Assembly: GCF_002532075.1 (NCBI RefSeq)
Contig: NZ_LYXE01000090.1
Span: forward strand, 62,001 to 126,000
Source of the DNA: Candidatus Chloroploca asiatica
Lineage (GTDB): Bacteria; Chloroflexota; Chloroflexia; Chloroflexales; Chloroflexaceae
Reading direction: 5' to 3'
DNA: 64,000 bases
Each line of letters begins with the position of its first letter. Position 1 is the first letter of the stretch. Below are positions 5,539 to 25,691 of this stretch, piece by piece. The notes under the pieces are model-generated. The model worked only from the letters and a program-made list of their open reading frames with translations. It had not been told where the DNA came from and did not search any database. The position numbers and the translations under genes are program-made.

Positions 5539-5574
5539 GTTGTAACCAACCGCGCTAGCGCGGTTGGTTACAAC
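5539..5574. terminator. 36-bp perfect palindrome between convergent genes
   Basis: The arm gttgtaaccaaccgcgct is followed immediately by its exact reverse complement, with no spacer. It sits between treY and the convergent gene ending at 5568, and overlaps the last codons and stop of that gene. As RNA it would form a strong hairpin on either strand, so a bidirectional terminator is the simplest reading, although there is no long U-tract on either side (aaaaa follows only as part of the coding sequence). Confidence 0.6.
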
Positions 5575-7016
5575 GGAAAAACCTCTTCCACCGGAACCAG
5601 CCGTAACGACCCCGTGGGGCACCTGCTGACACACGTCAGGTCGTTGTACCCAGGGCACAGGTCGCATTTGTCAGCGCGATGCGTCGGCCTCGCCGGCTCC
5701 AGCGGGATCATCGGGCTCCGCCGCAGGCGATCACTCGCTGCCCGTAGCATTGTCACCAGCGGCCCGCGCTGAGGGCGTTGGTGGGGCAACGGGACACTCG
5801 CAACGGCATCGTAGGGGCACGCTTCAATGCATTTGCCACAGCCGGTGCAAGCGTCGGTGATGATCAACACACCGTTTTCGGTGCGCTCAAAGGCGTCATC
5901 AGGGCAGACTTCCACACATTCAGCGCCGACACTGCATTGCCGACAGGTATCGACAACATCAAACTGATCGATTTTGGCCCCGTTCAGACTCAAGCGAGCA
6001 CGCCCATGCCGATCGGCACACGCCTGTTCACAGATACGACAATCTGGTGGGCAGAGTTCCGGGGTGCGCACGAGCAGATGGGTGCCTCGCAACAGGCCCT
6101 TCGTGACCGCCAGTTCAACCTGGTGCTTCCGCTCTTCATCATTGCTCACCTTCTCCGAGTTGCTGAGACGGGCTTCAATGACCTGGCGGAGTTGCGCTTC
6201 AAGTTCTGGACGCTCTTCAATCAGGCGGTAAAATTCAGCCCCTGGCAGGGCAAGCACATCGGTAGGGGTTAGGGCACGCACATTCGCCCGATGAGGCTTG
6301 CTGGTCAGCAACGCCATCTCACCAAAGAAATCACCCTCGCCCAATGTGGCAATGGTCACACCATCTTGTTCGACCATCACCTGACCATTCTCAACCAAAT
6401 AGAGCGCACTCGCCGGTTCGCCCTGACGGATAATGGGGGTACCCCGCGCAATATGCATTGGTTCCAGCAACCCCGACAGAGCCAGGCGCTCCATCGGGAA
6501 GAGTTGACTCAACAAGGGAACACGCGCCAGGGTACAGTCAACCATGCGCTGCTTGTAGACGCGGCGCAAAGCCGCAGCCAGCATGGGCATGCTGCTCAGC
6601 GCATCGCGGAGTTCGGCAATCGGTATCTGTAACAGATGGCAGTCGGTTTGCGTCAGCGCACTCATCCGCCGAAAGAAATCACCAAACAGCGGCCCTTCGC
6701 CAAAACAATCGCCACGTGACAATGCGCCCATCAACACATCGCGGCTATCTTTGTCACGCAAGCGCAAAAACAGGCTCCCCTGCAACATAATGAAGAGGAA
6801 GCGATCCTGTTTCTGTTGTCCTAAGAGCGTCGCCCCGGCAGGGAAAGCGCGAAACGTGCTCATCGCCAGCAGGCGGCTCAATTCACCCGGCGGCACATCT
6901 TGGAAGCAATCAAGGCACGCCAGCACCGCCAGCGCTTCTTTACGCCGCATACTCTCACGATCAGCCCGCACCTGCGCGACAGACGAACGGGCTGGTGAAG
7001 ATTTTTTTACCGCCAT
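5568..7016 (-). CDS. Tandem cyclic-nucleotide-binding domains fused to 16-Cys ferredoxin
   Basis: 482 residues. The first CNB domain covers about residues 30-150, the second about 165-280; the second has a near-canonical phosphate-binding cassette (FFGEMALLTSKPHRANV). The C-terminal third carries sixteen cysteines in four groups (CPPDCRICEQAC, CRQCSVGAECVEVC, CTGCGKCIEAC, CDLCPGYNDLTCVSRC), the arrangement of DmsB/HycB-type proteins with up to four [4Fe-4S] clusters. There is no helix-turn-helix, so it is not a CRP-type repressor. No signal peptide or membrane segment is seen; it should be cytoplasmic. It is divergent from an aldehyde:ferredoxin oxidoreductase, which often has a polyferredoxin partner, so it may be an electron carrier gated by a cyclic nucleotide. 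That coupling is inference; the domain calls are firm. Confidence 0.85.
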   Translation of the reverse strand: MAVKKSSPARSSVAQVRADRESMRRKEALAVLACLDCFQDVPPGELSRLLAMSTFRAFPAGATLLGQQKQDRFLFIMLQGSLFLRLRDKDSRDVLMGALSRGDCFGEGPLFGDFFRRMSALTQTDCHLLQIPIAELRDALSSMPMLAAALRRVYKQRMVDCTLARVPLLSQLFPMERLALSGLLEPMHIARGTPIIRQGEPASALYLVENGQVMVEQDGVTIATLGEGDFFGEMALLTSKPHRANVRALTPTDVLALPGAEFYRLIEERPELEAQLRQVIEARLSNSEKVSNDEERKHQVELAVTKGLLRGTHLLVRTPELCPPDCRICEQACADRHGRARLSLNGAKIDQFDVVDTCRQCSVGAECVEVCPDDAFERTENGVLIITDACTGCGKCIEACPYDAVASVPLPHQRPQRGPLVTMLRAASDRLRRSPMIPLEPARPTHRADKCDLCPGYNDLTCVSRCPTGSLRLVPVEEVFPL

Positions 7017-10162: not shown

Positions 10163-12900
10163 GTTGGATTATTGTCCGTGGTGCCCGCGAGCACAATCTC
10201 AAAAACATTGATGTGCGCTTGCCCCGCCATCAACTGGTGGTCATCACCGGCCTCTCAGGCTCGGGCAAGAGTACACTGGCGTTCGATACGATCTTTGCCG
10301 AAGGCCAGCGTCGTTATGTCGAAAGTCTTTCGGTCGCCGCTCGTCAGTTTCTCGGCCAACTCGCGAAACCAGATGTTGATGCCATCGAGGGTCTTTCGCC
10401 AGCGATTGCCATTGATCAGCATAGCGGGAGCCGTCATCCGCGCTCAACGGTCGGAACCGTCACCGAGATCTATGATTTTTTGCGCCTCCTCTTTGCCCGC
10501 GCTGGTCAACCCCACTGCCCGCAGTGCGGCCTGCCCCTCATTCGCCACTCGGTGCAAGAAATGGTTGATGCGATCCTGACCCTCCCCGAAGGTAGTCGCC
10601 TGCTCTTGCTCGCGCCGCTAATTGCCCAGCGTACCGGCGATCACGTGCTTGTCTTTGAGGAAATGCGCCGCCGTGGCTTTGTCCGCGTGCGTGTCAATGG
10701 CGATGTCCGCGACCTTGATGAGGTCATTACCCTCGATCCTCTACACAGCCATACGATCGAGGTGGTGGTCGATCGCTTGATTGTCCGCCATCCTCCAACC
10801 AACGTCGCTCGCCCCCGCGCTGATCAACTCGCCGAACACCCCGATCGCGTGCGGATCACCGACTCGGTCGAGACGGCCCTCAAGCTTACCGCAGGACGTT
10901 TGCTTGTGCATACACTCAATGGCGCAACCCTGAGCTTTTCACAGGCCTATGCCTGCCCTGACCACGGGGCAATTAACCTCTTCAGCCTCGAACCACGTCA
11001 TTTTTCGTTCAATAGCCCGCACGGTGCCTGCCCAACCTGTGATGGTCTGGGCCAGGTCGCTGAACGCGATCGCGGCGCGCATCGTGACCGCGAGTTGCTT
11101 GCGTCTGCGTTATCTGATGACGCCCCCGCTGATGAAGAAGAGGCCGATGAAGCCGCGTTCGTCAATGGGGCGTTCCAGATCTGCCCTGCGTGCCACGGCG
11201 ATCGCCTGCGGGCTGAAGTGCGGGCCGTCACCTTTGCCGACCAGACTCTGCCCAACATCAATCGAATGCCGATTACCGAGGCGTTGGCATGGACCCAAAG
11301 GATCTTAATGCTGGTGGAGGAAAAACCGCCTACGCCACCACCAGACCATCCCTCAACCGACGCCGGCCTCGCCTCCACAGAAGCGGGCACGACACCCACA
11401 ACCCTCACCACACGCCAACGCTTGATCGCCGCCCCGCTACTCAAAGACGTCGTCGAACGACTTGCCTTCCTTGTTGATGTTGGCCTCGGCTACCTCACCC
11501 TCGACCGGGCAGCCACGACCCTCAGCGGTGGCGAGAGTCAACGCATCCGTCTGGCAACCCAGGTTGGTGCAGGCCTCTCGGGGGTGATCTATGTGCTTGA
11601 CGAACCAAGCACCGGTCTCCATCCCCGCGACCACGAGCGTCTGTTGCGGACGCTCATCCGCCTGCGCGACCTCGGCAATAGTGTGCTGGTGGTTGAACAC
11701 GATGAAGCGACGATCCGTGCCGCTGATTGGATTGTTGATATTGGCCCCGGCGCTGGCCCACAAGGCGGCGAATTGATCGTCAGTGGCACCCTCGCAACCG
11801 TGCTCGCCGAGCCGCGCTCACTCACTGGGCAGTACCTCAGTGGCAAGCGACGAGTCCCGCGCCCAACGCAGCGACGCCCCGGCAATGGTCACTTCCTGAC
11901 CCTCCGTGGTTGCCGTGAAAACAATCTCCACAATCTCGACGTGACGTTTCCGCTCGGATGCCTCGTGGTCGTCACCGGTGTTTCAGGGAGTGGCAAAAGC
12001 AGCCTCGTCATGGATACGCTCTATCCTCGCCTCGCCCAGGAATTGCATGGCGCCCAGGGGCGCGTCGGACTCCATACGAGCCTCGAAGGACTCGCCGCCA
12101 TTGACAAAGTTGTCGCGATTGACCAGCATCCGATCGGGCGCACCCCACGCTCAAATCCAGCCACCTACAGTCGCGTCTTTGACCCAATTCGCAACCTCTT
12201 TGCCGCCACCATCGAGGCCCGCGCCCGCGGGTACGATGCCTCACGCTTTAGCTTCAATGCCCGGGGTGGACGCTGTGAAGCCTGTCGTGGCGAGGGCCTG
12301 ATCCGCGTCGAAATGCAGTTTCTCCCTGATCTCTTTGTGCCCTGTGACCGCTGTGGTGGCACCCGCTACAACCGTGAAACCCTCGATATACGCTATCGCG
12401 ACCAGACCATTGCCGATGTGCTCGCCATGACCGTCGCCGAAGGTGCCGAGTTTTTTGCCCGTGTTCCCGCGATTGCCGAACGGCTGCAAACTCTGCTCGA
12501 TGTTGGCGTCGGCTATATTCGCCTCGGCCAGCCGGCCAATACCCTCTCGGGGGGTGAAGCGCAACGCATCAAACTGGCAACCGAACTGGCCCGTCGCGCC
12601 ACTGGACGCACCCTCTATATCCTTGACGAGCCAACCAGCGGCCTGCACATTGCCGATATCGAACGCCTCTTGAGCATCCTGCATCGCCTCGTTGATGCAG
12701 GCAATACCGTTATGGTGATCGAGCATAACCTCGATGTCATCCTGCACGCCGACTGGGTGTTTGACCTGGGGCCCGAGGGTGGCAGCGGCGGCGGGCATCT
12801 CGTCGCCGCTGGCCCTCCTGAAACGGTGATGCAAGTCGCCGCCTCACCCACGGGGACATACCTTGCCAGACATCATGCTTCACTGGCTACTCAAGGTTAA
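10159..12900 (+). CDS. uvrA: UvrA-family excision nuclease ATPase with shortened insertion domain
   Basis: 913 residues. UvrA dimers locate DNA damage and load UvrB. Two ABC ATPase units are seen: Walker [10 protein letters not shown] (31-39) and GVSGSGKSS, signatures [12 protein letters not shown] and [12 protein letters not shown], and two YVLDEP/YILDEP Walker B motifs. The UvrB-binding region (about 131-250) is present. The zinc module CPDHG...CPTC has His where E. coli has the second Cys; the C-terminal zinc module (CEAC...CDRC) is intact. Between CPTC (291-294) and CPAC (342-345) there are only about 47 residues, far fewer than in E. coli UvrA, so the DNA-contacting insertion domain is cut down. 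A Pro/Thr-rich linker (387-417) is also unusual. It may be a specialised paralogue rather than the housekeeping UvrA. The ATG overlaps the proB stop. Confidence 0.88.
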
Positions 12901-12909
12901 CATAATCTA

Positions 12910-12939
12910 TTGACGATAGGGCAAGCCATCGTGTACAAT
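12910..12939 (+). promoter_or_regulatory. Sigma70-like promoter for the beta-helix/giant kinase operon
   Basis: TTGACG at 12910-12915 and TACAAT at 12934-12939 with an 18-base spacer. Transcription would start near 12946, leaving a leader of about 160 bases before the ATG at 13109. Confidence 0.6.
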
Positions 12940-12966
12940 ACCAATACTCACCCCTACTGCGAAACC

Positions 12967-13050
12967 ACGCATGGTTCTCGTAATGCGACTGTAACCTCGC
13001 CTACTTGTGATCCCAGTCGCTACATCCTATAGTACTTCGTAGGGGATGTA
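12967..13050 (+). promoter_or_regulatory. Structured 5' leader with three hairpins
   Basis: Three inverted repeats follow the promoter: aacca/tggtt near 12964-12977, gcgactg (12985-12991) with cagtcgc (13014-13020), and tacatccta (13021-13029) with taggggatgta (13040-13050). I do not recognise a known riboswitch consensus. It may regulate the operon after initiation, or the pairing may be incidental. Confidence 0.35.
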
Positions 13051-13108
13051 TGCCATCAAGGTGGGTAGTTACTATCTCTCATGTTGTCGTGCAAGAAAGG
13101 GGATCTCG

Positions 13109-14749
13109 ATGGAGCGCATCATCATCCGCGATCATCAACCGATCGCTCCGTTTGCTGAACCCGCACGCGAATTACGTATTCTGAATAAGCCCCTTTGGTT
13201 GCTCCAACGCGATCTGCTCAAACATCACTGCAAAGGTAGTCTTGAAATAAATTCAATTGAAGATCTTTTTACTGAGCAAAATAGCAACTCAAATGAATTA
13301 TTAGTTTATCGCGATAATCTTTTTTTTAATGCAAATCTTATCGATGCATTCATCAGTGCCGCACGCGCTTCGGGGCGTGCCTGCCAGATCGCGTTTCGTG
13401 CCAGCAATCCTGCCACCGGCGTACGGGGTGACCCCACGATCGAACGCCATGCGTTGCAGTTGACCCGTGGTTTTGTTGCCCGCGCCGCGCAACCCTGCCT
13501 CGATGACGGTCGCGACGCGTGGGCCGATGTCTATCTTGCCGAACTCTACTATTTCCCTCACGGCCCCGTTCAAGACCCCACCCCGCTTATTATCGAAACC
13601 CAGAGCCACGAGATGGGCTATTATCATATCCCAAGCTATATGGCGCATAAGGGCGATCTCACCTATCAGATCCCGCTGCGCGCTTTTCTTTCCCTTGAAA
13701 GCTGGGTGCATGTCTTTATCGCCAATATCTTGATGGGTGTCTTCACCGATGCGGCAGCGCAAGATGTCAAAATGAGCCGCGCTCGCCTCAAAGATGTGCT
13801 CCACTGGAAACGCGAAGATTGGCGCATCTTTGTTGATAAGGCCGGCTTCTCTGCGGCGGCGATCTGGCAACGCCTCAATCCCTTTGAAGAGATGTGGCGC
13901 AACCATTTCCTCGCCTCGCATGCCCTGGTCAAAGTGGGCAAGAATTGCTCGATTGATCCCTCGGCAACCATCCACGGGCCAACCGTGATCGGGGATAATG
14001 TCTATATCGGGCCAGGCGTTGTGATTGCCAATAGCATCATTGGCAATAATGTCAATGTGATGCAGGGAAGCCAGGTAATGCTCAGTGTGGTGAGTGATCG
14101 CTGTTTCCTCCCCTTCAATGCAGGTCTCTTTATGACCACCTTGATGGAAAATAGTATGGTCGCCCAGAATTCCACCCTGCAGTTGACCGTCGTTGGGCGC
14201 AATACGTTTATCGGGGCCAATAATTGTTTTACCGATTTCAATCTACAAAATGAACCAATCAAAGTGATGCACCGCGGCGAAGCCGTTGAAGTACATCTCC
14301 CCGTCTTGGGGTCAGCTGTGGGCCATAATGTAAAAATCGGCAGTGGCTTTGTCGTCTACCCTGGACGAATGATCGAGTCGAATACCGTTATAATCTTTGA
14401 TCATGATCAGGGCTTGATTAGCAAGACGGTCAGGGGGCACGATGTCGACGATGTCGACGTTGATACCAGTGAACCACGCCGGATTATCTATCACTGGCCC
14501 AATGTCTACCACGACCCAGCCCAACCAGACCAGCCTGAACCACCTGGGGCCTCCCTTGATCAGATCCAACCAGCCTATTCCAACGGAAGCTGCCGTTCCA
14601 ATGGCGATCACCACGATGCCTCCACTTTGCATGAGCATCAGTCGTTGCCAACCCCAGCCCGATCAATTAGTCAATCGACTGGCTCTGTCAGCCAGCAGCA
14701 CCAGCGCGTCGGTGTTTCTCCCACCAGTGCGAGGAGGTCAATCCGGTGA
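13109..14749 (+). CDS. Left-handed beta-helix (hexapeptide repeat) protein, function unknown
   Basis: 546 residues from the ATG at 13109, chosen for the strong aagaaagggg ribosome site just upstream; the frame is open 63 bases further. Residues about 277-425 contain hexapeptide repeats (SIDPSATIHGPTVIGDNVYI, GPGVVIANSIIGNNVNV, GSAVGHNVKIGSGFVVYPG), the fold of sugar-nucleotide acyltransferases and GlmU C-terminal domains. The N-terminal 270 residues resemble no family I can name, and the tail after about 440 is Pro/Ser/Gln-rich and probably disordered. No signal peptide or membrane segment. An AT-rich patch (about 13240-13345) encodes an Asn/Leu-rich stretch. It overlaps the next receiver gene by four bases, so it belongs to the sensory operon. 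It could be an acyl- or nucleotidyl-transferase, or a scaffold; I cannot assign a reaction. Confidence 0.75.
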   Translation: MERIIIRDHQPIAPFAEPARELRILNKPLWLLQRDLLKHHCKGSLEINSIEDLFTEQNSNSNELLVYRDNLFFNANLIDAFISAARASGRACQIAFRASNPATGVRGDPTIERHALQLTRGFVARAAQPCLDDGRDAWADVYLAELYYFPHGPVQDPTPLIIETQSHEMGYYHIPSYMAHKGDLTYQIPLRAFLSLESWVHVFIANILMGVFTDAAAQDVKMSRARLKDVLHWKREDWRIFVDKAGFSAAAIWQRLNPFEEMWRNHFLASHALVKVGKNCSIDPSATIHGPTVIGDNVYIGPGVVIANSIIGNNVNVMQGSQVMLSVVSDRCFLPFNAGLFMTTLMENSMVAQNSTLQLTVVGRNTFIGANNCFTDFNLQNEPIKVMHRGEAVEVHLPVLGSAVGHNVKIGSGFVVYPGRMIESNTVIIFDHDQGLISKTVRGHDVDDVDVDTSEPRRIIYHWPNVYHDPAQPDQPEPPGASLDQIQPAYSNGSCRSNGDHHDASTLHEHQSLPTPARSISQSTGSVSQQHQRVGVSPTSARRSIR

Positions 14750-15702
14750 GCAAAGAACGTATTCTAGTCGTTGAAGACCAGCCTGATATTTCCAACCTGC
14801 TCAAGATCTATTTCACATCGCGCGGTTACGAGGTCTTCACCGCGATGCGTGGTTCCCATGCACTGGAGATCTGTAGCAAAACACCACCCAATCTCGCCCT
14901 CCTCGATGTCAATCTTCCCGATATGGAAGGCTATGAAATCGGGCGGGTGTTACGGGCCAACCCCCGTACACGCCATATTCCGATCATCTTTTTGACGGCA
15001 CGCGGTGAACGCCGTGACCGTCTGATCGGCCTTGGTGAAGTGCAGGCTCAGTACTATATCGTCAAACCCTTTGATATCGAAGAAGTTCATACGATTGTCA
15101 AGAACCAGCTCGATGAGGCCCGGCGCAAAAATCAATTGCACCCCGTCACCAATCTCCCTACCGCCGAGTTGATCAATGAGCAACTCCGCAATCTCTTGAC
15201 GACCCAGGGCTGGGCAATGGCCCAAATCCATATCAATGGCTTCGAGACCTTTACCCAGAGTTATGGCTCGGTTGTGGGTGAGGATGTGCTGAAGTTTACC
15301 GCATTGCTCCTCAACGAGGGGGTCAGTGAAGTTGGCATAGGTAATTCTGATGAGTTTGTCGGCCAGATGGTGGTCGGACCTGATTTTGTTGTGACCTCAA
15401 CCCCTGAACGGATCAAACTGATCTGTGAACATTTGCTAAATCGTTTTGACGAAGAAATTGGGTTGCACTACAATTTCCGCCATCGTAAACAGGGCTTCCT
15501 GGAGATCACGGATGAAAACGGAACGATGCGCCAGGTGCCGTTGATGTCGCTCGCTATCGGTGTCCTGACCAGTCAAGATGGCCCGTTTTACGATATTCGT
15601 GAACTCAGCGAGACGGCTGCCGAAACACGCCAGCGCGCCACCCATCAGGCGCGTGAGCAGGGCCGTAAGAGTTGGATTGCCTATGGTCGGGGTCATGCCT
15701 AA
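14746..15702 (+). CDS. Response regulator with degenerate GGDEF-like output domain
   Basis: 318 residues, GTG start overlapping the previous TGA (GTGA). The receiver domain spans residues 1-120 with acidic pocket Glu10-Asp11, phospho-acceptor Asp54 (LLDVNLPD) and the conserved Lys in YYIVKPFD. After a short helical linker, residues about 130-318 align with a GGDEF fold: TNLPTAELINEQL corresponds to the DxLTGLPNR opening and GNSDEFV stands where GGDEFV would be. The two glycines needed for GTP handling are lost, so diguanylate cyclase activity is unlikely; the domain may bind GTP or a partner. It lies directly upstream of the giant histidine kinase, its probable phosphodonor. No DNA-binding domain is present. 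Confidence 0.85.
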   Translation: MSKERILVVEDQPDISNLLKIYFTSRGYEVFTAMRGSHALEICSKTPPNLALLDVNLPDMEGYEIGRVLRANPRTRHIPIIFLTARGERRDRLIGLGEVQAQYYIVKPFDIEEVHTIVKNQLDEARRKNQLHPVTNLPTAELINEQLRNLLTTQGWAMAQIHINGFETFTQSYGSVVGEDVLKFTALLLNEGVSEVGIGNSDEFVGQMVVGPDFVVTSTPERIKLICEHLLNRFDEEIGLHYNFRHRKQGFLEITDENGTMRQVPLMSLAIGVLTSQDGPFYDIRELSETAAETRQRATHQAREQGRKSWIAYGRGHA

Positions 15703-15794
15703 ACAGAAGTTGTCCGTTCAGGCTCTTCAGAAAGCTGCTTCATCTCCGTTTATATGAGCAGAACGTCGCTGTGGAGGAGCACCACGACTGCACT

Positions 15795-18700
15795 ATGGAT
15801 ACCACACTTGCCCTGACCTCTGCAACAGGCTGGGAATTGCTCGCACAGCTTGCCCAGAGCATGCAACATCAAACACCAGTACCCTCAGCCGACTATGCCG
15901 GTCGGCTCGTTGCGTTACTGACTCGCTATCTTCCTTGCTCAGCAGGTCGCCTTGAACTCTGTGAGCAAGGATATGTCGTGGCTACCGCAGCCTGGGGTGC
16001 GGAGTTTGCACCGCCTGAAGCCTCGGCCCTCCTCGAGTGTCGTGCAGATGCTGAGTTGGTCGGGCAGTTGTTCCTCCATGAGCCCTACGGTGTTCTCCTC
16101 GAACCTGCGTTTCGTGCCGCCCTCGCGGCGCAACTTGCCTTCTTGATCGCCTCCCAGCAGCGCTTACTTGCCTCAAATCAGATCGAGCAGATCTATGAAA
16201 TCGCCGCCGCTAGGCTCAAACTGGTCGGTGATCGCGATCTCGTGACCCTGCTTCAGTCGTTTCTGGCCAGTGTTGCCTCCCTTCTGCAGGTTGAGGCGGG
16301 CGCGATCTATACCGTTGACCCCGATGAAGGCCGCCTCAATTTGCTCGCCCTCGGTACGCGTGATCTGCGCCTCACCACGAGCTTGCCCCTGTCAAGTGAA
16401 AACCTGATTGTTCAGGCCCTCCAGGGCATGCAAGTTGGCACACTGACGCTTGACCTAGGTCGCACGACCCAGCCCCCCCCACAAGACCTTGCCCGACCCG
16501 CGCTGGCGGTGCCGCTCAAGCATCAGGACGAACCTGTCGGTACCCTCGTCTTCCTCTTGAAGCATGCGCACGTTGCGGCCTGGCTCTTGCAGGCCGCTGA
16601 CGTATGTGCCTCCCAGGTGATGCTGCTGGTGCGCAATGCACGCCTCTTGAGCCATCAACAACAGCGTGCCCGTGAGCTCTTCGTCCTCTATGAAAATAGT
16701 CAACAGATTACCGGCACTGGTCAACTTGACGGTATGCTCGCCCGCGCAACCGAGAATATTGCCCTTACCCTCAAAGCTGATATCTGTGCTGTGCATCTGG
16801 TCGAACAATCACCGCCCGATACGCTGCATACTATCAGTGTCTACAGCGACGACTCGACCCACCATGCCGAGCGCAATGGACGCTTTCCTTCGACCCTGAA
16901 AGGGGCCAGGTTTATCCTCGCGCAAGTGGGTCGCGACGAGACGATGCTGATCGAGGATACGCAGGCGATCGCCAGCCATAATGATTTCGCCGCGATCCTC
17001 GCTGCCGCAGGCTGCCAGAGTGCGCTCGTTTTGACGCTGCGCGGTCAGGATCAGATCCTCGGGTTGATGACGCTTGGCTTCAACCGCCCCCGTCACCCTG
17101 TCTCGCCAACTGACCGCAACCTCGCACAGGTGCTCGCCGCTCAGGTTGCAACGGCTATTCTTAATCGCCGCCTCTATCTCGCGGCCCAGCAACGCGCCAC
17201 CGAGCTTGAGTTGCTGCAGAGCATTAGTCAAAAACTGACGGCAGAACTCTCGCTTGAAGAGACGATCGAGGCGATCCTCGCCGGGGCCAAGGAACTCGCT
17301 CGTTTTAACGGTGCCCGCATTACCCTTGTTGATCAACGTGCGCAAGCGTTGCGCCTCGGTGCCCAGTGGGGTCTCGACGAGGCACTCGCTGCGGCTGAGT
17401 TGACCACCTGGCTTTCACGTCATCAGCGTACCCTGCGCATTAGTGACCTCGCACACCTTCCACCTCAACTCCGCGATCTGCATCTTTCAGGTGCTGTCAA
17501 ACTCACTGATCAGGGGCCTGCACGATCCTATCTGGGGGTTCCGTTGCGCCTCCGCGAAGAATTGCTTGGAACCTGTGAGTTGTTTGCAGTACAACCTGGC
17601 GCTTTTACCGAAGATGATGCCCGTTTGCTCACGATTGTCGCTGGCTATGCCGCGCAGGCCATTGCCAATGCCAGTCGCTATGAACAGGCGGACACCAGTC
17701 TTCAGGCTCGTATTGAACAGTTGCGCGCACTCCAGCGCGTCTCGAGTCAGCTTGCCTCCACGCTCGACCAGAAAGAGATCCTGCGGTATGTGCTCGATCA
17801 GGCCCTCAAGGTGACCGGGGCGAGCCATGGCTTGATCGCTCTCCGTAACACCGCTGATGATGAGACGGCTGAACACGCACTGCTGCTCGATACGCTCGGG
17901 TTGGGTGACCAGCAAACCCCCGCCATCTATCGCGATGCCCTCGATACCGCTGTACCACAGGTTCGTTCGGTCTATTTTATTGCTGAGGCAGTTGGGTTTG
18001 AAACGGCACGCCATGATCAATTGATCGGCACTCCTTTGCCCTTCACCGCAACCACGGCCTGGCGCGCCCTCGAACGACGTGAGCCCGAGTTCAACGATCG
18101 GTTGTCTGCTGATGAGTGGGTTCCTGAACACCTTGCCGATAAGCAGTCAGCCCTCGCAGCCCCTATCTTCTATCAGGCTGGGGTCTATGGGGTCTTGATC
18201 CTTTTTGCACCTCGTTTGCGTGCGTTTGATTATGATGCCGTTGAGTTTTTGCGTGCCCTGACCCACCAGGCCGCGGTTGGGATTGGCAATGCCCAGCGTT
18301 ACGCCGAGTTGGAACACCTCTACCGTACCCAGGAGACAAAAGCCGAGATCCTGAATAATGTGCTCGAAATTGGTCAGGCCCTGCGCGGTGAGCGTTCGCT
18401 TGAGAATCTGCTCGAACAGGTCGCGTATAGTGCCGTCGAGTCGGCCAATTATCGTAAGGCGCTCTTCTGCCTGACCAGCCCCCAGCAACCTCGTCTGCTC
18501 ACGCCGTTCGCCGCTGCGGGTATTCCACGCGATGTGCTTGCCTCAATGAAACAACTGACGCTTGATGATCGCCTCGTAACTCGTTATCTCGAACCTCGTT
18601 TTCGGCTCGGACGCTGCTATTTCATTCCCGCTCAAGAAGCTCGTGTGATCGAAAGCGAGTTTGAGACCAACATTTTTGCGTATCTGCAAGGTGATGACGA

Positions 18701-21700
18701 GCCCTTGTCCTCCGAGTGGCAAATGAGCGACCGCCTCTGTGTGCCCCTCTATGCCACTGACGGCGATCTGCTCGGGGTCATGCTGGTCGCCGATCCGCTC
18801 GATCATCGCCGTCCAACTGAACGTACCGTTGAGCCACTCGCAATCTTTGCTGACCAAGCCGCTATCGCGATCGAGAATGCCTGGCTTTTGCGTGATGCCG
18901 ATGCCCGCGCCGACGAGATGACTGCCCTCTTTCAGGTTGGTACGGCCGCAACCTCAACCACTGATCTCGATACCCTGCTCAACCGTGTCTATGCCGAGCT
19001 TACCTCCTTCCTTGGGGTGCCAAGTTTCTTCTTTGTGGCAAGCTATCACCACGAGACCGATGATATCTATTTCAATCTGTTTATGCAAGGCAACGAATTG
19101 GCCTATGCCATGCATAAGACCGTGGTGCCAAGATCGGGCCTGATTGAACTGGTACTCCACAATGGCGAACCACTGTTGATCGCGGATCTCTGGGCTCAAC
19201 CAGCCTATCAGGCTCAGGCTGTGCATTATGCCGATGAAGCAGCATCCATTCGTTCCTGGCTGGGGGTGCCGCTCATCAGTCAGGGCCGCGCTATCGGTCT
19301 GCTCTGTCTGCAAGATGTGCAACCCCATGCCTTTGCCCAACCTGAGGTTCAGTTCCTGTCAACGGTCGCCAGCCAGCTTGCTATTGCAATCGAACGGGCA
19401 AGTCTCTTCGATGAGCGCGAACGCCGCCTCACTGAGCTTGATGTGATCAATCAGATTGGCCACGTTACCAGTTCAACCCTCGATCTCCAGATGATGCTTG
19501 AACAGGTCTATGATCACCTGAAGAGTTTCCTGTCACTCGATTCCTTCTTTGTCTTTATCTACTATGAAGAAGAGAATCGGATCACTCTCTCGATTGAAGT
19601 TGATGATGAGATCTTGACGTTCGATGATCATTGGCGTACCCCCAGTCCAACGAGTTTGACCGCACGGATTATTCAGACCCGTAGCCCCCTGCTCTTCCAC
19701 GATCTCCGTCAGGAAGAGATGGACGAGAACTTCAACCCGGTTACCTTTGGTACCGAACGCGTCTCGGCCTCATGGCTGGGGGTGCCGTTGCTCGTTGGCG
19801 AGAGCAGTGTTGTCGGTGTCATTGCCGTCATGAGTTATAGCCCCGGGTTGTATGGCCCGCGTGAACGCTCCTTCTTGACGACGGTAGCAAATCAACTGGC
19901 CCTCGGTGTCCAGAATGCACGCTTGCTCGAACAGGCCGAGGCCCAGGTTGACCATTTGCAACTCGTCAATCAGGTATCGTTCATGGCGAGTGCCGAAACT
20001 GATGTCCAGGCGATCTATCAACTCGTGGTCGATGCGATGGCACAGGCCACGCGCGTCGATCAGGCCCGACTGGTCATCTATGACCGCGAGGCTGGGGTTG
20101 CCTATGCTGTCGCTGAACATCGAGCCAGTGGCGTTCTTGATCAGATCCGCATTCCGCTGCGCGATAGCCCGTCCGTTGATTGGCTCGATCAACACCGCGA
20201 GCCGCTGGTTGCCCTTGATGCGCAGCATGATCCACTCTTTGTCCTTTCTCATGCTACCTTCCGTGAGCTTGATATTCGCTCGATTGCCCTCGTACCGCTT
20301 GTTGTCGCGGAAGAGGTAATCGGTGCCGTGGGCCTCGATTTTGTTGGCCGAGTCGGTGAGTTCAGTACCCAGCGCGTCAAGCTGTGCCATACGATCGCGA
20401 ATCAAACCTCGACCGCGATTAGCCGCGCTCAAGCGTTTGCCGCCGCAAGTGCGAGTGCCGAGGCCCTTGAACAAAAGGTGAAAGACCTCTCGACGGTGCT
20501 TGATGCCGCCGGGATCCTCTCCTCACTCTTGCGCGCCGATGAGGTGCTGAATAAACTGATGGATCTGGTGAGCCGAAGCCTCGGTGTGGCTACGGTGGCA
20601 CTCTGGATTATCAATGGTGAGGATGTCCTGGTACCAATCGCCATTGCGGGCATTCCCATTGACCAACGCCAGAGTATGCGCGTTCCCGTCGGTGAAGGTA
20701 TGACCGGACGCGTCGCCTCCACTCGCAAACCGCTCATTATTGATAATGTGGAACTCTCTGGCACGTCACTCTATCCAACCTACCAGCGCGAAAATCACCT
20801 CATCTCCTATATGGGTGTGCCCGTCATCTATCAGGGCGAAACGATCGGTGTCCTCAGTGTGATGACGAACGCCGAACGTCATTTTAGTCAGGACGAACAG
20901 GCGCTCTTGTTAGGTCTCGCTGACCAAGCGGCGACGGCCCTTCAGACCGCCCGCCTCTTTCAGGAACGCGAACAGAACATTCACGAGCTCTCGACCATCA
21001 ATACGATTAGCGCTGATGTCAATGCCACCCTCCAACTTGATGACCTCATTTCCCATCTCCACGAGGGCATTGGCAAGGTTCTTGATGTCCGTACTTCAAT
21101 GGTGACTCTCTATGATGTCCCCACCAATACCTTTACCTGCCCCCTCGCCTATCATCAGGGCCTTCGTGTGCAGCCTACCGCCCAGATGCTCCGTGATGCG
21201 GTGAATGCCAGGGTTGTCCAGTCTCATCAGTCGCTCCTGTTCACGAGCCGCGATGATATCCTGACCGCTGGCTTGCTCCCGGAACCATTTGATCCCGCGC
21301 TGGTCGAGTATCCGGTCGAATCGCTGCTGGTTGTGCCCATCCTGTTTGGCAATCAACCCCTCGGCGTGATCAATGTGCAGAGCTATGAACCACGTGCTTT
21401 TACCGAGGGCGACGAGCGTTTCTTGATGACAGTGGCGAATCAGGCCGCAGCCGCCATCAATAATGCCCGCCTCTTTAGCGAAATGACGCGCAATGCCGAC
21501 GAGATGCAGACGCTCCTCGATGTGACGCGTAGCCTCGCAGGTTCCCTTGATCTCGATGAGACCCAGCGCCTCATTGCGTCCGGTGCGCTTGGGTTGCTCA
21601 ATGCCGAGTTGTGCGCCGTGCTACGCCTTGATGCTCACGGAACCATCGAACAGCAGGTGCTCGTTGATGCCTCTGGCCTCCGTGACGATCTTCATATCGA

Positions 21701-23726
21701 CTTCCGCTTCCACGGGATGACCCACGCGCTGCTCGAACGGAATGCCCCTCTCGCCATCGCCGATCTCCATGTACTCGAAGATTCAAATCCCGATGCGCTC
21801 CGTCTCGGTATTCGTAGTGTCGTCGGTACCGCGATTGGTCTGCACGATGAACGCCTTGGTGTGATTTGGATCGGATTGTATCAACCTCACGAATGGTCGT
21901 CTCAACAGATTTCTCTGCTTGGCATTCTCGCAAATCAGGCCGGTCAGGCCCTCAAGAGTGCCCGCCTCTTCGCCGAGGTCTCGAATCTCGCCGCCGATCT
22001 TGAGCATCGCGTGAAAGAACGAACCGCTGAGGTTGAACTCGCGAATCAGCAACTCTCTGAGGAAAAAGAACGCCTCGAAGCTGTCCATACCATTACGCTT
22101 GAATTGACAACCCAGCTTGATACGTCGATCATTCTGCGCGAATCCCTCGAGTCGATCTCGCTGAATCTTGGCGTCACACGCGGGTCAATTATGCTCCGCG
22201 ACCCCGAAACCCAGGTGCTTATCTGCCGTGCTGTGCTCTTTGGCCTTGGTGATGCCCGTACCGCGAATATCCCCCTCAGCCTGGGCGGCGGTGAGGGACT
22301 CGCCGGCTGGGTGATGCAATACCACGAGTCGGTCAATATCCCTGATGTCCTCCAGGATCCGCGCTGGCAACAAGAACCCGGACGCGCTGATGATGTACGC
22401 TCTGCTGCTGCTGTACCTTTGCAAACCAGCGACCAGGCCCTTGGGGTGCTCGTGCTCTCGAGTACCCAGGTGAACTATTTTACCGACTCGCAGATGAATC
22501 TCCTTGGCACGATTGCCAGCGTCGTTGCAGCTGCCGTCTCGAATGCCCAACTCTATAGCTATATTAATGATCTCGCGAATAGCAATGGCTTACTCCTCGA
22601 AGCCCAACGCGAAGAGAGCTCCAAACGCGCCGCTGTCTTTAGCTCGGTCAGTGAGGGCATTATCGTGCTCGATCCCGACCAGTGCATTACCCTCTTCAAT
22701 CCCGCAGCTGAACAGGTCGTCGAGGTTGCTTCGGACATGGTGCTTGGTCATCCGCTGAGTATCCTCGAACACCTCAACACCGATGATATGGCCGTGCAAC
22801 GGCGTGCACGGGCGATCTTCCAGGCGCTCGCCAATGGCCTCAAACAGGTGGAGTTGCATCAGCAGATCTACTCAACTTCGATTGATCTCACCGATCCGAC
22901 CCAGTTTATTGCGGCTAATCTGGCCCCCGTCATTGGTCCTAGTGGCGACCATTATGGCAATGTCGCTGTGTTACGTGATGTGACCGGTGAAATCGAGGCC
23001 GATCAGGCGAAACGCCAGTTTATCTCGGATGTGAGCCACGAACTGCGGACGCCCCTCACGGCAGTTAAAGGCTATGTCGATGTTCTGCTGTTGACCGCTG
23101 CGGATAGCCTGAATGAGGATCAGATTGGGTTTCTCCAGATTATCAAAAATAATACCAATCGCCTCCGGGCGCTGATTGACGATATTCTAGAATTCTCGCG
23201 CCCCGACTCCAAGCGTAAACTTCAGATTAGTGACATTGATATTCCATCTTTGATTAAAGAGGCCGTGCAGTCGTTGCTGCTCGAGGCCGAGCATAAGCAG
23301 ATGCATGTCTCGCTTGATGTCCCCGACGATCTGCCGCTCGTGATGGGCGATCAACGCCGCATTAGCCAGGTCTTCTTCAATCTCTTCTCGAATGCCGTCA
23401 AGTATACCTTTGAAGGCGGGCACATCCACGTCCGGGCTTTTATGAATCCAGGTGGCATGCTCCAGATCGAAGTCGAAGATACTGGCGTCGGCATGACCCC
23501 CGCCCAACTCAAGAAACTCTTCCGTCCCTTCTACCGTGCGGATAATCCCCTCCGTGATATCACCGGAGGCACCGGTCTCGGCCTGGCGATTGCCAAACAG
23601 ATTGTGGAACAACACGGGGGCGAAATGTGGGTACCTTATAGCGAACCGGGACGCGGCAGTGTCTTTAGTTTTATTCTGCCCCTTGACCAGCCTGAAGCTG
23701 AGCAGACTGACGAGGACGCCACGTGA
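15795..23726 (+). CDS. Giant multi-GAF hybrid-less sensor histidine kinase (~12 GAF, PAS, HisKA, HATPase)
   Basis: About 2643 residues from the ATG at 15795, which has ggagg at 15773-15777; GTG 15771 is a possible alternative, and the frame is open back to 15672. After a 100-residue N-terminal stretch I count about twelve tandem GAF units, each opened by a helix such as LELLQSISQKLTAELSLEE, LRALQRVSSQLASTLDQKE, MTALFQVGTAATSTTDLDT or LEAVHTITLELTTQLDTS. A PAS domain follows (FSSVSEGIIVLDPDQ, near 22640), then HisKA with phospho-acceptor His2415 (SHELRTPL) and an HATPase with N box NLFSNAVKYT, DTGVGM and GGTGLGLAIA. No transmembrane segment or receiver is seen, so it is a soluble cytoplasmic kinase. 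A heptad-like linker (EVELANQQLSEEKERLEA) precedes the last GAF. It ends overlapping the hydrolase gene by four bases. The ligands are unknown. Confidence 0.92.
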   Translation: MDTTLALTSATGWELLAQLAQSMQHQTPVPSADYAGRLVALLTRYLPCSAGRLELCEQGYVVATAAWGAEFAPPEASALLECRADAELVGQLFLHEPYGVLLEPAFRAALAAQLAFLIASQQRLLASNQIEQIYEIAAARLKLVGDRDLVTLLQSFLASVASLLQVEAGAIYTVDPDEGRLNLLALGTRDLRLTTSLPLSSENLIVQALQGMQVGTLTLDLGRTTQPPPQDLARPALAVPLKHQDEPVGTLVFLLKHAHVAAWLLQAADVCASQVMLLVRNARLLSHQQQRARELFVLYENSQQITGTGQLDGMLARATENIALTLKADICAVHLVEQSPPDTLHTISVYSDDSTHHAERNGRFPSTLKGARFILAQVGRDETMLIEDTQAIASHNDFAAILAAAGCQSALVLTLRGQDQILGLMTLGFNRPRHPVSPTDRNLAQVLAAQVATAILNRRLYLAAQQRATELELLQSISQKLTAELSLEETIEAILAGAKELARFNGARITLVDQRAQALRLGAQWGLDEALAAAELTTWLSRHQRTLRISDLAHLPPQLRDLHLSGAVKLTDQGPARSYLGVPLRLREELLGTCELFAVQPGAFTEDDARLLTIVAGYAAQAIANASRYEQADTSLQARIEQLRALQRVSSQLASTLDQKEILRYVLDQALKVTGASHGLIALRNTADDETAEHALLLDTLGLGDQQTPAIYRDALDTAVPQVRSVYFIAEAVGFETARHDQLIGTPLPFTATTAWRALERREPEFNDRLSADEWVPEHLADKQSALAAPIFYQAGVYGVLILFAPRLRAFDYDAVEFLRALTHQAAVGIGNAQRYAELEHLYRTQETKAEILNNVLEIGQALRGERSLENLLEQVAYSAVESANYRKALFCLTSPQQPRLLTPFAAAGIPRDVLASMKQLTLDDRLVTRYLEPRFRLGRCYFIPAQEARVIESEFETNIFAYLQGDDEPLSSEWQMSDRLCVPLYATDGDLLGVMLVADPLDHRRPTERTVEPLAIFADQAAIAIENAWLLRDADARADEMTALFQVGTAATSTTDLDTLLNRVYAELTSFLGVPSFFFVASYHHETDDIYFNLFMQGNELAYAMHKTVVPRSGLIELVLHNGEPLLIADLWAQPAYQAQAVHYADEAASIRSWLGVPLISQGRAIGLLCLQDVQPHAFAQPEVQFLSTVASQLAIAIERASLFDERERRLTELDVINQIGHVTSSTLDLQMMLEQVYDHLKSFLSLDSFFVFIYYEEENRITLSIEVDDEILTFDDHWRTPSPTSLTARIIQTRSPLLFHDLRQEEMDENFNPVTFGTERVSASWLGVPLLVGESSVVGVIAVMSYSPGLYGPRERSFLTTVANQLALGVQNARLLEQAEAQVDHLQLVNQVSFMASAETDVQAIYQLVVDAMAQATRVDQARLVIYDREAGVAYAVAEHRASGVLDQIRIPLRDSPSVDWLDQHREPLVALDAQHDPLFVLSHATFRELDIRSIALVPLVVAEEVIGAVGLDFVGRVGEFSTQRVKLCHTIANQTSTAISRAQAFAAASASAEALEQKVKDLSTVLDAAGILSSLLRADEVLNKLMDLVSRSLGVATVALWIINGEDVLVPIAIAGIPIDQRQSMRVPVGEGMTGRVASTRKPLIIDNVELSGTSLYPTYQRENHLISYMGVPVIYQGETIGVLSVMTNAERHFSQDEQALLLGLADQAATALQTARLFQEREQNIHELSTINTISADVNATLQLDDLISHLHEGIGKVLDVRTSMVTLYDVPTNTFTCPLAYHQGLRVQPTAQMLRDAVNARVVQSHQSLLFTSRDDILTAGLLPEPFDPALVEYPVESLLVVPILFGNQPLGVINVQSYEPRAFTEGDERFLMTVANQAAAAINNARLFSEMTRNADEMQTLLDVTRSLAGSLDLDETQRLIASGALGLLNAELCAVLRLDAHGTIEQQVLVDASGLRDDLHIDFRFHGMTHALLERNAPLAIADLHVLEDSNPDALRLGIRSVVGTAIGLHDERLGVIWIGLYQPHEWSSQQISLLGILANQAGQALKSARLFAEVSNLAADLEHRVKERTAEVELANQQLSEEKERLEAVHTITLELTTQLDTSIILRESLESISLNLGVTRGSIMLRDPETQVLICRAVLFGLGDARTANIPLSLGGGEGLAGWVMQYHESVNIPDVLQDPRWQQEPGRADDVRSAAAVPLQTSDQALGVLVLSSTQVNYFTDSQMNLLGTIASVVAAAVSNAQLYSYINDLANSNGLLLEAQREESSKRAAVFSSVSEGIIVLDPDQCITLFNPAAEQVVEVASDMVLGHPLSILEHLNTDDMAVQRRARAIFQALANGLKQVELHQQIYSTSIDLTDPTQFIAANLAPVIGPSGDHYGNVAVLRDVTGEIEADQAKRQFISDVSHELRTPLTAVKGYVDVLLLTAADSLNEDQIGFLQIIKNNTNRLRALIDDILEFSRPDSKRKLQISDIDIPSLIKEAVQSLLLEAEHKQMHVSLDVPDDLPLVMGDQRRISQVFFNLFSNAVKYTFEGGHIHVRAFMNPGGMLQIEVEDTGVGMTPAQLKKLFRPFYRADNPLRDITGGTGLGLAIAKQIVEQHGGEMWVPYSEPGRGSVFSFILPLDQPEAEQTDEDAT

Positions 23727-24559
23727 GTGCCATTCATCTTGACAATCGTCTGGTTCACTACGAGGTCGTAGGACGTGGCCAGCCAATTATTTTCCTCCAT
23801 AGCTGGCTCGGCTCGTGGCGTTACTGGGTCTCAACGATGGATCTTGTCTCCGAGCGCTACCGTGCCTATGCCCTCGATTTCTGGGGCTTCGGTGAGAGCG
23901 ATCGGCACGGTAGTCATTTCACGATTACTGATTATGTGCATATGCTCGGCCAATTTATGGATCAGATGGGGATTGCCAAAGCTAATCTGGTCGGTCACGG
24001 CCTCGGTGGCATGGTGGCGATACGGGCTGCACGCGAGCAACCAGATCGCTTTTTACGCCTGATGACGGTCTCGACCCCGATGCAAGGCCATACCCTCGCC
24101 GATCTGGTCAAGCCAGGTACTTTTTCGCGCCTCCTCGGTAAATCGAATCCAAGCAATGTCTGGTCGAAGTTGCTCCGCAGCATCCCGATCACTGATCCTG
24201 AAGTGCAACACGAACTGCTCGAAGATACCGAGGGCCTCAGTGAAACAGTGCTCGCCAGTGTGCAAGAATCCCTCTTTGATACCGATCTCCGCTCAACCGT
24301 CAATGTGCTTGAGCGCCCCCTCCTGGCGGTCTATGGCGCCCAAGATAAGATTATCAATCTTGACCACGTTATGTTTCTCAATCAACTCCATGATCGCCCG
24401 GTGCAGTTGCTGATTCTGCCCAGAGCTAACCACTTCCCCTTCCTTGAGCAAACGACAACCTTTTCACGCCTGTTGCTCGATTTTCTCATCGCTGAACAGC
24501 AACCGGTGGAGATCAAGGAGGAATGGAAACGACGGGTCAATCAGCGCGAGTATCTCTAA
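23723..24559 (+). CDS. Alpha/beta-hydrolase fold protein lacking the nucleophile
   Basis: 278 residues, GTG start overlapping the kinase stop. The oxyanion-side motif (FLHSWLGS), strand-helix pattern, Asp208 (YGAQDK) and His237 (PRANHF) fit a catalytic triad of the RsbQ/lipase type, but the nucleophile elbow reads GHGLGG: residue 93 is Gly (codon GGC at 23999-24001) where GHSLGG is expected. Classical ester hydrolysis should therefore be impaired. It may act as a ligand-binding sensor, as plant and bacterial hydrolase-fold receptors do, or use another mechanism. Translational coupling to the GAF kinase recalls RsbQ working with the sensor phosphatase RsbP, although RsbQ keeps its serine. It is cytoplasmic. 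The next gene is convergent, one base away. Confidence 0.85.
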   Translation: MSAIHLDNRLVHYEVVGRGQPIIFLHSWLGSWRYWVSTMDLVSERYRAYALDFWGFGESDRHGSHFTITDYVHMLGQFMDQMGIAKANLVGHGLGGMVAIRAAREQPDRFLRLMTVSTPMQGHTLADLVKPGTFSRLLGKSNPSNVWSKLLRSIPITDPEVQHELLEDTEGLSETVLASVQESLFDTDLRSTVNVLERPLLAVYGAQDKIINLDHVMFLNQLHDRPVQLLILPRANHFPFLEQTTTFSRLLLDFLIAEQQPVEIKEEWKRRVNQREYL

Positions 24560-24560
24560 T

Positions 24561-25691
24561 CTATACCTGTACCGCGCTCCGCCGCATCGCATAGAGCATC
24601 ATGCCCAGGACAATCAGGCCGAGACAGAGCAAGGCCACCAGTTTTGCACTCGCTGGGATGGCAAGCAGGGCGATCACTCCAAAAACGGTGCTGAGCGTGT
24701 AGTAGATCATAACGACTTGCCGCTGTGAGAGGCCTAGATCCAGCAGGCGATGGTGCAGGTGATCACGTCCCGCATGTGCAGCCGAGTCGCCCCGCACCGT
24801 ACGGCTCAGAATCAGCCAGGCCATGTCAATCAAGGGCACCCCCATCACGAGTAACGCGGTGGCTAGTTTGGCCCCACCAATGATGGCACTGACCCCTAGA
24901 ATGTACCCCAGTGACATCGCGCCCACATCACCCATAAACGTGCGTGCCGGGTGCAGGTTAAAGGGTAAAAAGCCCGCACATGCCCCCGCCAGCGCAAGCG
25001 GTAGAAACGCAACCGTGTATTGTGGCGGCTCAAGACTCAGGGTGTGCAAGGCGAGAATAACCCCGGCAATGAGCGTGATGCCCCCCGCCAATCCATCCAA
25101 TCCATCTGTCCAGTTGACCATATTCTGCATCCCGACAATCCAGAAGACCGTGGCCCCAATCGCAAGCCACGGACTCAGGTTATGCAGATGGATCTGTTGG
25201 AGAAAGGGGAAATTAAAGGCTGTCAGAATAATGCCCCGTGCCTCGGTGGCTTGCCCCATCGCATCAGGATAGAGTGTCTGATCCCAGAGGTAGGGGCCAA
25301 CCGCGATCAAAGCCGCCACGATATGCAGCACAAGACGACGTCCGGCGGGCAGATTGCGCAGGTCGTCAATGAGGCTGACGCACGCCACGACGCTCAACCC
25401 CGCCAGCAACAACCCGAGCCGCGTGCGTTCGGCTGAGGTGCGTTGCAACACAGGATCAAGCTGCTCAAAGGCAAAACTGGCGAGCAAGGCGATGGCAAAA
25501 CCAGCAATCATCGCCAGGCCACCGACTGTTGGTGTCGCGATCCGATGCACATGGCGCGGCCCTGGCTGCGCAACCCATCCCTCGCGCTTGCTCAACCGGA
25601 TCAGCGGTGGCGTAAGCAAGGCGGTGAGCACCAGGGCAACCCCAAAGGTGAGCGCCAGGGCAAGGATTACCATGTCACGGTGCCCAATCAA
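24561..25691 (-). CDS. TagO/WecA-type undecaprenyl-phosphate glycosyl-1-phosphate transferase
   Basis: 376 residues, polytopic membrane protein with about ten hydrophobic helices. Such enzymes transfer a sugar-1-phosphate (usually GlcNAc-1-P) from UDP-sugar to undecaprenyl phosphate, starting wall or surface polysaccharide synthesis. Motifs present: VSLIDDLR (DD pair), [27 protein letters not shown], and [19 protein letters not shown], the last typical of WecA/TagO rather than MraY. The TTG at 25691 overlaps the upp stop by four bases; an ATG six codons in (25673) is an equally plausible start. It is the last gene of the trigger factor-Clp cluster on this strand. Confidence 0.88.

Follow-up and report, generated by a model that had tools for sequence, protein, structure and literature searches.

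A stretch of 64,000 nucleotides from Candidatus Chloroploca asiatica, a member of the order Chloroflexales (NCBI RefSeq assembly GCF_002532075.1, contig NZ_LYXE01000090.1, positions 62,001 to 126,000; hereafter the window), contains four genes that follow one another on the + strand between 13109 and 24559 and encode a beta-helix protein, a response regulator, a very large histidine kinase and an alpha/beta-hydrolase-fold protein (Table 1). The last of these lacks the nucleophile of its fold in all 41 operon proteins of the order and may serve as a receptor that acts on the kinase. A preliminary description of this DNA, made from its letters and open reading frames, had read the genes as a translationally coupled chain with two 4-nucleotide overlaps and a 92-base gap, and when these were re-read from the open reading frames and the DNA, the coordinates, both overlaps and the gap were borne out. 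Pfam recognises Hexapep in gene 1, Response_reg together with a GGDEF match below cut-off in gene 2, GAF in 12 stretches, PAS, HisKA and HATPase_c in gene 3, and Abhydrolase_1 in gene 4.

Conservation of the four genes in Chloroflexota

The nearest named genomes among the best 80 of 323 relatives scanned are Candidatus Chloroploca mongolica and Candidatus Chloroploca sp. Khr17, whose beta-helix proteins are 95 and 96% identical to that of the window. Across 61 genomes of the order, the beta-helix protein was matched in 57, the regulator in 59 and the hydrolase in 58 (E 1e-30, paralogues included). From these genomes we read 40 loci, picked from among those with the genes on one contig, and in all 40 the best tblastn matches to beta-helix protein, regulator, kinase and hydrolase lie in this order on one strand. 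Coincidental gene order was rejected on these grounds, and the case that the preliminary description had named as damaging to a module, the genes standing apart in close relatives, was not encountered in this sample of single-contig loci. The kinase and hydrolase genes overlap by exactly 4 nucleotides in 27 of the 40. L084, L087, L093 and L117, at the least, have a kinase frame that is short, broken or split, and in L093 the beta-helix frame is affected too.

A draw of 301 genomes from the phylum yielded the beta-helix gene in 55 (30 of the order, 25 of other classes), and a draw of 158 from the class yielded it in 68, two of them outside the order. Of 27 loci read from outside the order, 20 have the beta-helix gene, the regulator, the kinase and a hydrolase gene 3' of them, along with extra receivers, a frame being split in a few. 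Among the other seven, contig ends cut L242 and L244, no kinase stands adjacent in L233, L234, L236 and L257, and L249 shows a rearrangement. Absences also tend to coincide: 13 of the 16 genomes of the order without a beta-helix match have no regulator and hydrolase match either, and these 13 belong to one family (eleven to genus g21, two to g31; some are incomplete), while G004 and G069 keep regulator and hydrolase and G062 keeps part of the regulator only. Judged by gene order and co-occurrence, which had been among the proposed checks, the four genes are a real, long-conserved unit.

The 13 genomes of one family, G039, G058, G066, G067 and G073-G081, gave no match to the beta-helix protein, the regulator or either hydrolase copy, the kinase not having been searched there. 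Loci of the Thermoflexus type (L209-L213, L233, L234) hold a Ser hydrolase and the beta-helix gene only, with no regulator or kinase in the stretch. A metagenome-assembled genome labelled Candidatus Gracilibacteria (L198) carries a Chloroflexaceae-type copy, 68% identical in its best segment, and is probably a mislabelled bin. The plasmid collection searched held no match to the beta-helix gene.

A layout frequent outside the order, and probably the ancestral one, runs from a Ser hydrolase through the beta-helix gene, another gene, the regulator, the GAF kinase and one to three receivers to a second hydrolase. In L113, and in all but one of the five Herpetosiphonaceae loci read, a single receiver separates the kinase from the hydrolase; the exception, L117, has a broken kinase. 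The window form has therefore probably lost a receiver at this place. In L220, the gene between beta-helix and regulator (11323-12426) matches the prodigiosin enzyme PigE (8.3e-65) and the long-chain acyl-acyl-carrier-protein reductase family TIGR04058 (7.3e-38), both far below cut-off, which hints at fatty-acyl chemistry. Elsewhere in its own genome C. asiatica encodes two homologues of this reductase-like protein and one homologue of a small GTPase that, together with a DUF4388 protein, lies directly 5' of the L220 locus (L220:7547-9011).

Nucleophile and C-terminal tail of the hydrolase-fold protein

By its fold the product of gene 4 is an ordinary alpha/beta hydrolase (Abhydrolase_1 at 8.2e-26; model with a predicted local distance difference test score, pLDDT, of 81.7 and a predicted template modelling score, pTM, of 0.84; Z 26.7 and root-mean-square deviation, rmsd, 2.6 over 239 residues to 3kxp). 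At the nucleophile elbow, where a catalytic hydrolase has Ser, Cys or Asp, it reads GHGLGG, and Gly occupies this position, 93, in all 41 operon proteins of the order, so that the hydrolase had rightly been called nucleophile-less. Asp208 and His237 are kept in all 41, as is Ser27, which replaces the usual Gly of the HGW motif.

Other groups of the family keep the serine. An unlinked paralogue in the same genome, 39% identical to the operon protein, reads GHSMGG, as it does in all five loci looked at, and the paralogue has Ser in 15 of 15 loci. Outside the order, where we call hydrolase copies upstream or downstream by their side of the beta-helix gene, all 44 upstream copies have Ser, and the 27 downstream copies have Gly (12), Ala (5), Asp (5) or Ser (5). 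These counts, like those of the tail below, leave out hydrolases under 650 bases, weak scores (e.g. the split frames of L230, L238 and L253) and identical copies. The Asp forms (L250:15637-16422, L251:15689-16474, L254:3389-4174, L255:15588-16373, L256:15648-16433) have possibly changed to another chemistry. The Ser paralogue (G000:C23:80701-81486; L119:6648-7487) lies beside the cytochrome c biogenesis genes CcmF, CcmE and Cytochrom_C_asm in the two genomes checked for its neighbours, L119 and L123.

The linked copies are further marked by a C-terminal tail, K-x-x-W-[KR]-R-R. Searching with W-x-[KR]-[KR], we found it in 39 of 40 same-order copies, the one miss (L085) being cut by a contig end, and in 25 of the 27 downstream copies outside the order, the misses L236 and L259 both having Ser; it occurs in none of the 44 upstream copies and none of the 15 unlinked paralogues (with duplicates, 26 of 29 downstream and 0 of 45 upstream). 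For 23 of the 27 downstream copies a kinase is present in the stretch, L222, L227 and L236 being without one and L249 being rearranged at the stretch's edge, and 22 of the 23 carry the tail. The Ser-keeping L214 and L258, both with an adjacent kinase, and L227 carry it as well, which suggests that the tail is older than the loss of the nucleophile.

We built a hydrolase tree from 77 of the 126 labelled rows (16 of 40 same-order operon copies, 14 of 15 unlinked paralogues, 20 of 44 upstream and 27 of 27 downstream copies) and three outgroup rows. The same-order operon copies (100/99), the upstream copies (100/99) and the unlinked paralogues (100/100) each form a clade, and the letter at the nucleophile position needs to change at least five times.

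Kinase, regulator and beta-helix protein

In the window kinase the H, N and G boxes of a two-component kinase are present, and the twelve GAF domains ascribed to it earlier were counted alike by Pfam and by a GAF model built here. Their number ranges from 4 to 17 in 39 kinases, or from 6 to 17 without the broken L093, the 4 and one of the 6s coming from broken frames, and with this range a GAF array with a fixed ligand set was not kept as an explanation. The earlier suggestion that the GAF domains read a product of the hydrolase is not favoured either, because the nucleophile has been lost and the GAF number varies widely. In four kinases compared with that of the window, conservation is higher in the HisKA-HATPase part than in the GAF blocks. 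When the cores of 41 module kinases are compared with those of 24 other kinases from the C. asiatica genome, the module cores come out as nearly one group (2 changes; shuffled mean 19.7).

The receiver of the regulator has an acidic residue, the phospho-acceptor Asp, Thr/Ser and Lys, and these (D11, D54, T84 and K107) are invariant in all 41 regulators of the order; in 51 rows from outside it, 48 of them distinct and a few second copies, the same positions read DDTK in 49 and DDSK in 2. The GGDEF-like domain, previously described as dead, carries the exact diguanylate cyclase motif GG[DE]EF in none of the 41 and none of the 51. Cyclases have a metal-binding Asp in a stretch of this domain that in the regulators of the order mostly reads HINGF. 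The layout, receiver plus GGDEF-like domain, is that of regulators of the PleD/WspR type, from which the window family differs in having no exact GG[DE]EF.

"Beta-helix protein" proved a correct but incomplete name for gene 1: Pfam and the model show a nucleotidyltransferase fold followed by the hexapeptide beta-helix. In the model (pLDDT 76.3; residues 260-340 weak, at about 50-60), residues 1-463 align to ST0452, a bifunctional enzyme from an archaeon (Z 24.5, rmsd 3.2, 322 residues), and further matches are the GMPPA/GMPPB complex (Z 18.6, rmsd 3.7 over 292) and eIF2B (Z about 17). ST0452, GMPPA/GMPPB and the eIF2B subunits share this two-domain fold with gene 1, which differs in its first part: GGxGTR, the Gly-rich nucleotide motif of sugar-1-phosphate nucleotidyltransferases, does not occur in the consensus built from 55 members of the family. 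By this one motif, the gene 1 protein may be a third retired enzyme.

The one good promoter seen earlier in front of the four genes is weak evidence when taken alone (11 promoter-like sites in 12500-25000 against 7.0 +/- 2.4 expected), and there are two candidates, P1 and P2. A sequence similar to P1 stands 5' of the gene in some of seven aligned upstream regions, three of which come from one genus. In the same regions a block CTGTAA...CTTG...CTAC...TATAGTA, within which P2 lies, is conserved 5' of gene 1 (window 12990-13034) and is possibly a regulator site plus promoter. Farther upstream, 5568-7016 on the - strand encodes a protein in which 4Fe-4S ferredoxin domains occur together with cyclic-nucleotide-binding domains, the latter in two stretches.

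Table 1. Features of the four-gene locus (positions in the window)
Feature	Position	Strand	Description and basis
Promoter-like site P1	12910..12939	+	TTGACG-18-TACAAT; 10/12 consensus match only
Promoter-like site P2	13005..13033	+	TTGTGA-17-TATAGT; TATAGTA identical in 7/7 aligned upstream regions
Gene 1	13109..14749	+	546 aa; N-terminal sugar-nucleotidyltransferase-like fold and left-handed beta-helix
Left-handed beta-helix (hexapeptide) part of gene 1	13925..14515	+	About residues 273-469; Pfam, model
Gene 1 stop/gene 2 start, 4-nt overlap (GTGA)	14746..14749	+	DNA
Gene 2	14746..15702	+	318 aa; response regulator, receiver and degenerate GGDEF; GTG start
Regulator stop to kinase start, gap of 92 bases	15703..15794	+	DNA
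Gene 3	15795..23726	+	2643 aa; GAF(12)-PAS-HisKA-HATPase histidine kinase; ATG start
Twelve GAF domains	16245..22541	+	Kinase residues 151-2249; Pfam and own GAF model
PAS domain	22626..22982	+	Kinase residues 2278-2396; Pfam
HisKA (His in SHELRTPL) and HATPase_c with N and G boxes	23007..23687	+	Pfam, box reading
Kinase stop/hydrolase start, 4-nt overlap (GTGA)	23723..23726	+	DNA
Gene 4	23723..24559	+	278 aa; alpha/beta-hydrolase-fold protein without nucleophile; GTG start
Gly93 codon, nucleophile position (GHGLGG)	23999..24001	+	DNA, alignment
Hydrolase C-terminal tail KEEWKRRVNQREYL	24515..24556	+	Signature of downstream copies; motif search

Proposed mechanism and alternatives

The reading of these features that we prefer, with a probability of about 0.47, is that the four genes encode a two-component system in which a pseudoenzyme of hydrolase fold would be the ligand receptor and would tune the system. 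The hydrolase-fold protein would bind a small ligand, perhaps ester-like or acyl-like, in what used to be its active site and would dock on the kinase, perhaps via its basic tail, thereby altering kinase activity near the PAS/HisKA end. The kinase would in turn phosphorylate the receiver of the regulator encoded with it, and the dead GGDEF domain of that regulator would be a binding module and not a cyclase. The nucleotidyltransferase/beta-helix protein would be either a target or a further sensor, plausibly for a sugar nucleotide or an acyl donor. A more far-reaching version, which we put forward only tentatively and with the odds rather against it, sees one live kinase and one live receiver amid three retired enzymes (hydrolase, cyclase and nucleotidyltransferase) that serve as sensors in much of Chloroflexota, hydrolase catalysis having been lost several times independently after the protein joined the operon.

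Such an arrangement has relatives among described systems. In RsbQ-PAS modules, RsbQ-RsbP of Bacillus subtilis included, an alpha/beta-hydrolase-fold gene likewise adjoins that of a PAS sensor, in some cases with histidine kinase output. According to the published account, the sensors are PAS-containing phosphatases, kinases or cyclases, histidine kinases being among them, the RsbQ gene stands immediately 5' of the PAS gene, the triad Ser, Asp, His is conserved in RsbQ, and direct contact between hydrolase and sensor has two-hybrid and pull-down support (PMC3183031). The preliminary description had seen in RsbQ-RsbP a partial parallel, with a phosphatase as the partner; it is a parallel, and a closer one than had been claimed, because partners other than phosphatases, histidine kinases among them, had already been described in that account. 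The window system may work like these modules, but it departs from three of their defining features: the catalytic Ser is replaced by Gly, only Asp and His being kept; the hydrolase gene lies 3' of the kinase gene, in the window as in the 40 same-order loci; and the PAS domain comes after twelve GAF domains, beside HisKA, with LRDVTGEI following it. A literature search with narrow terms among open-licence papers turned up no description that we recognised as a system of this make-up.

A Foldseek search with the hydrolase model returned D14/KAI2 receptors as many of the top 50 matches, rank 1 included, together with C-C hydrolases and esterases. A second look with VIA-align gave esterases, C-C hydrolases and the like, and no D14/KAI2, among the 50 matches listed, and descent from a D14/KAI2-type receptor was not kept as an explanation. 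Since enzymes occur in both lists and D14/KAI2 in one only, the likeness is taken as one of fold and not of membership. RsbQ is not among the matches listed, which carries no weight either way. The plant hormone receptors D14 and KAI2 are hydrolase-fold receptors, as is proposed here for the window protein, but they keep the catalytic triad, whereas the window protein has Gly.

Several observations weigh against the receptor proposal. On the tree, the same-order copies and 25 of the 27 downstream copies are joined with a support of only 81/90, and the remaining two, L236 and L259, group with the upstream copies; L259 has a kinase, has kept Ser and has no tail, while L222 and L227 have the tail and no kinase in the stretch, so that tail and kinase match imperfectly. 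The tail itself could be a membrane anchor. Asp stands at the nucleophile position in five copies, four of which have lost the catalytic acid (now Asn or Ser), a pattern that a simple receptor would not lead one to expect. In 76 of 78 genome pairs the Ser paralogue is better conserved than the operon copy (mean identity 64.5 versus 54.4%), which also fits relaxed constraint on the latter. Finally, a single clade of module kinase cores is compatible with the data (p-AU 0.29) but not established.

The invariance of Asp208, His237 and Ser27 could also be expected if the hydrolase-fold protein were still an enzyme that used a His-Asp dyad or Ser27 in a nucleophile-free or relocated reaction, its product being read by the kinase, as has been proposed for RsbQ-RsbP. 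The five downstream copies with Asp at the nucleophile position are in line with this, Asp being the nucleophile of haloalkane dehalogenases. Ser27, however, is special to the order, the 17 Gly and Ala forms outside it having Gly at this position in 15 cases and Ser and Asp in one each, and we regard a surviving enzyme as unlikely, if worth keeping in mind. That the best mark of the downstream copies is a short basic peptide outside the pocket would suit a purely structural role, in which both partner proteins, the hydrolase-fold one and the beta-helix one, bind no ligand and serve, for example, as scaffolds that position the kinase at a site in the cell; yet it is not evident why a scaffold should have Asp and His preserved in 41 of 41 proteins, and we consider this rather improbable. 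The genes might also be co-transcribed and work apart, their synteny reflecting operon structure only. The Thermoflexus-type loci with upstream hydrolase and beta-helix genes but no kinase or regulator in the stretch, the missing adjacent kinase in L236 and L257 and the rearrangement in L249 point this way, but the confinement of the tail to downstream copies and the joint absence of beta-helix, regulator and hydrolase matches in 13 of 16 genomes speak against it and make it very unlikely in our view.

What is new here is the invariant Gly at the nucleophile position with Asp and His kept, the other groups that keep Ser, the at least five changes of the nucleophile letter, the tail and the fold of gene 1. 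If the more far-reaching version is true, the complex would parallel in bacteria the plant hormone receptors that derive from hydrolases, alongside a paralogue of the active type that these genomes retain. Because the nucleophile has given way to Gly, Ala and Asp in separate lineages of the operon-linked family, while two sister groups keep Ser and the linked form is marked by the tail, the natural forms with Ser, Gly, Ala and Asp could be compared, the Ser paralogue serving as control, and a passage from enzyme to sensor would thereby be directly testable. The proposal would also give a function to seek in a very large kinase of Chloroflexota.

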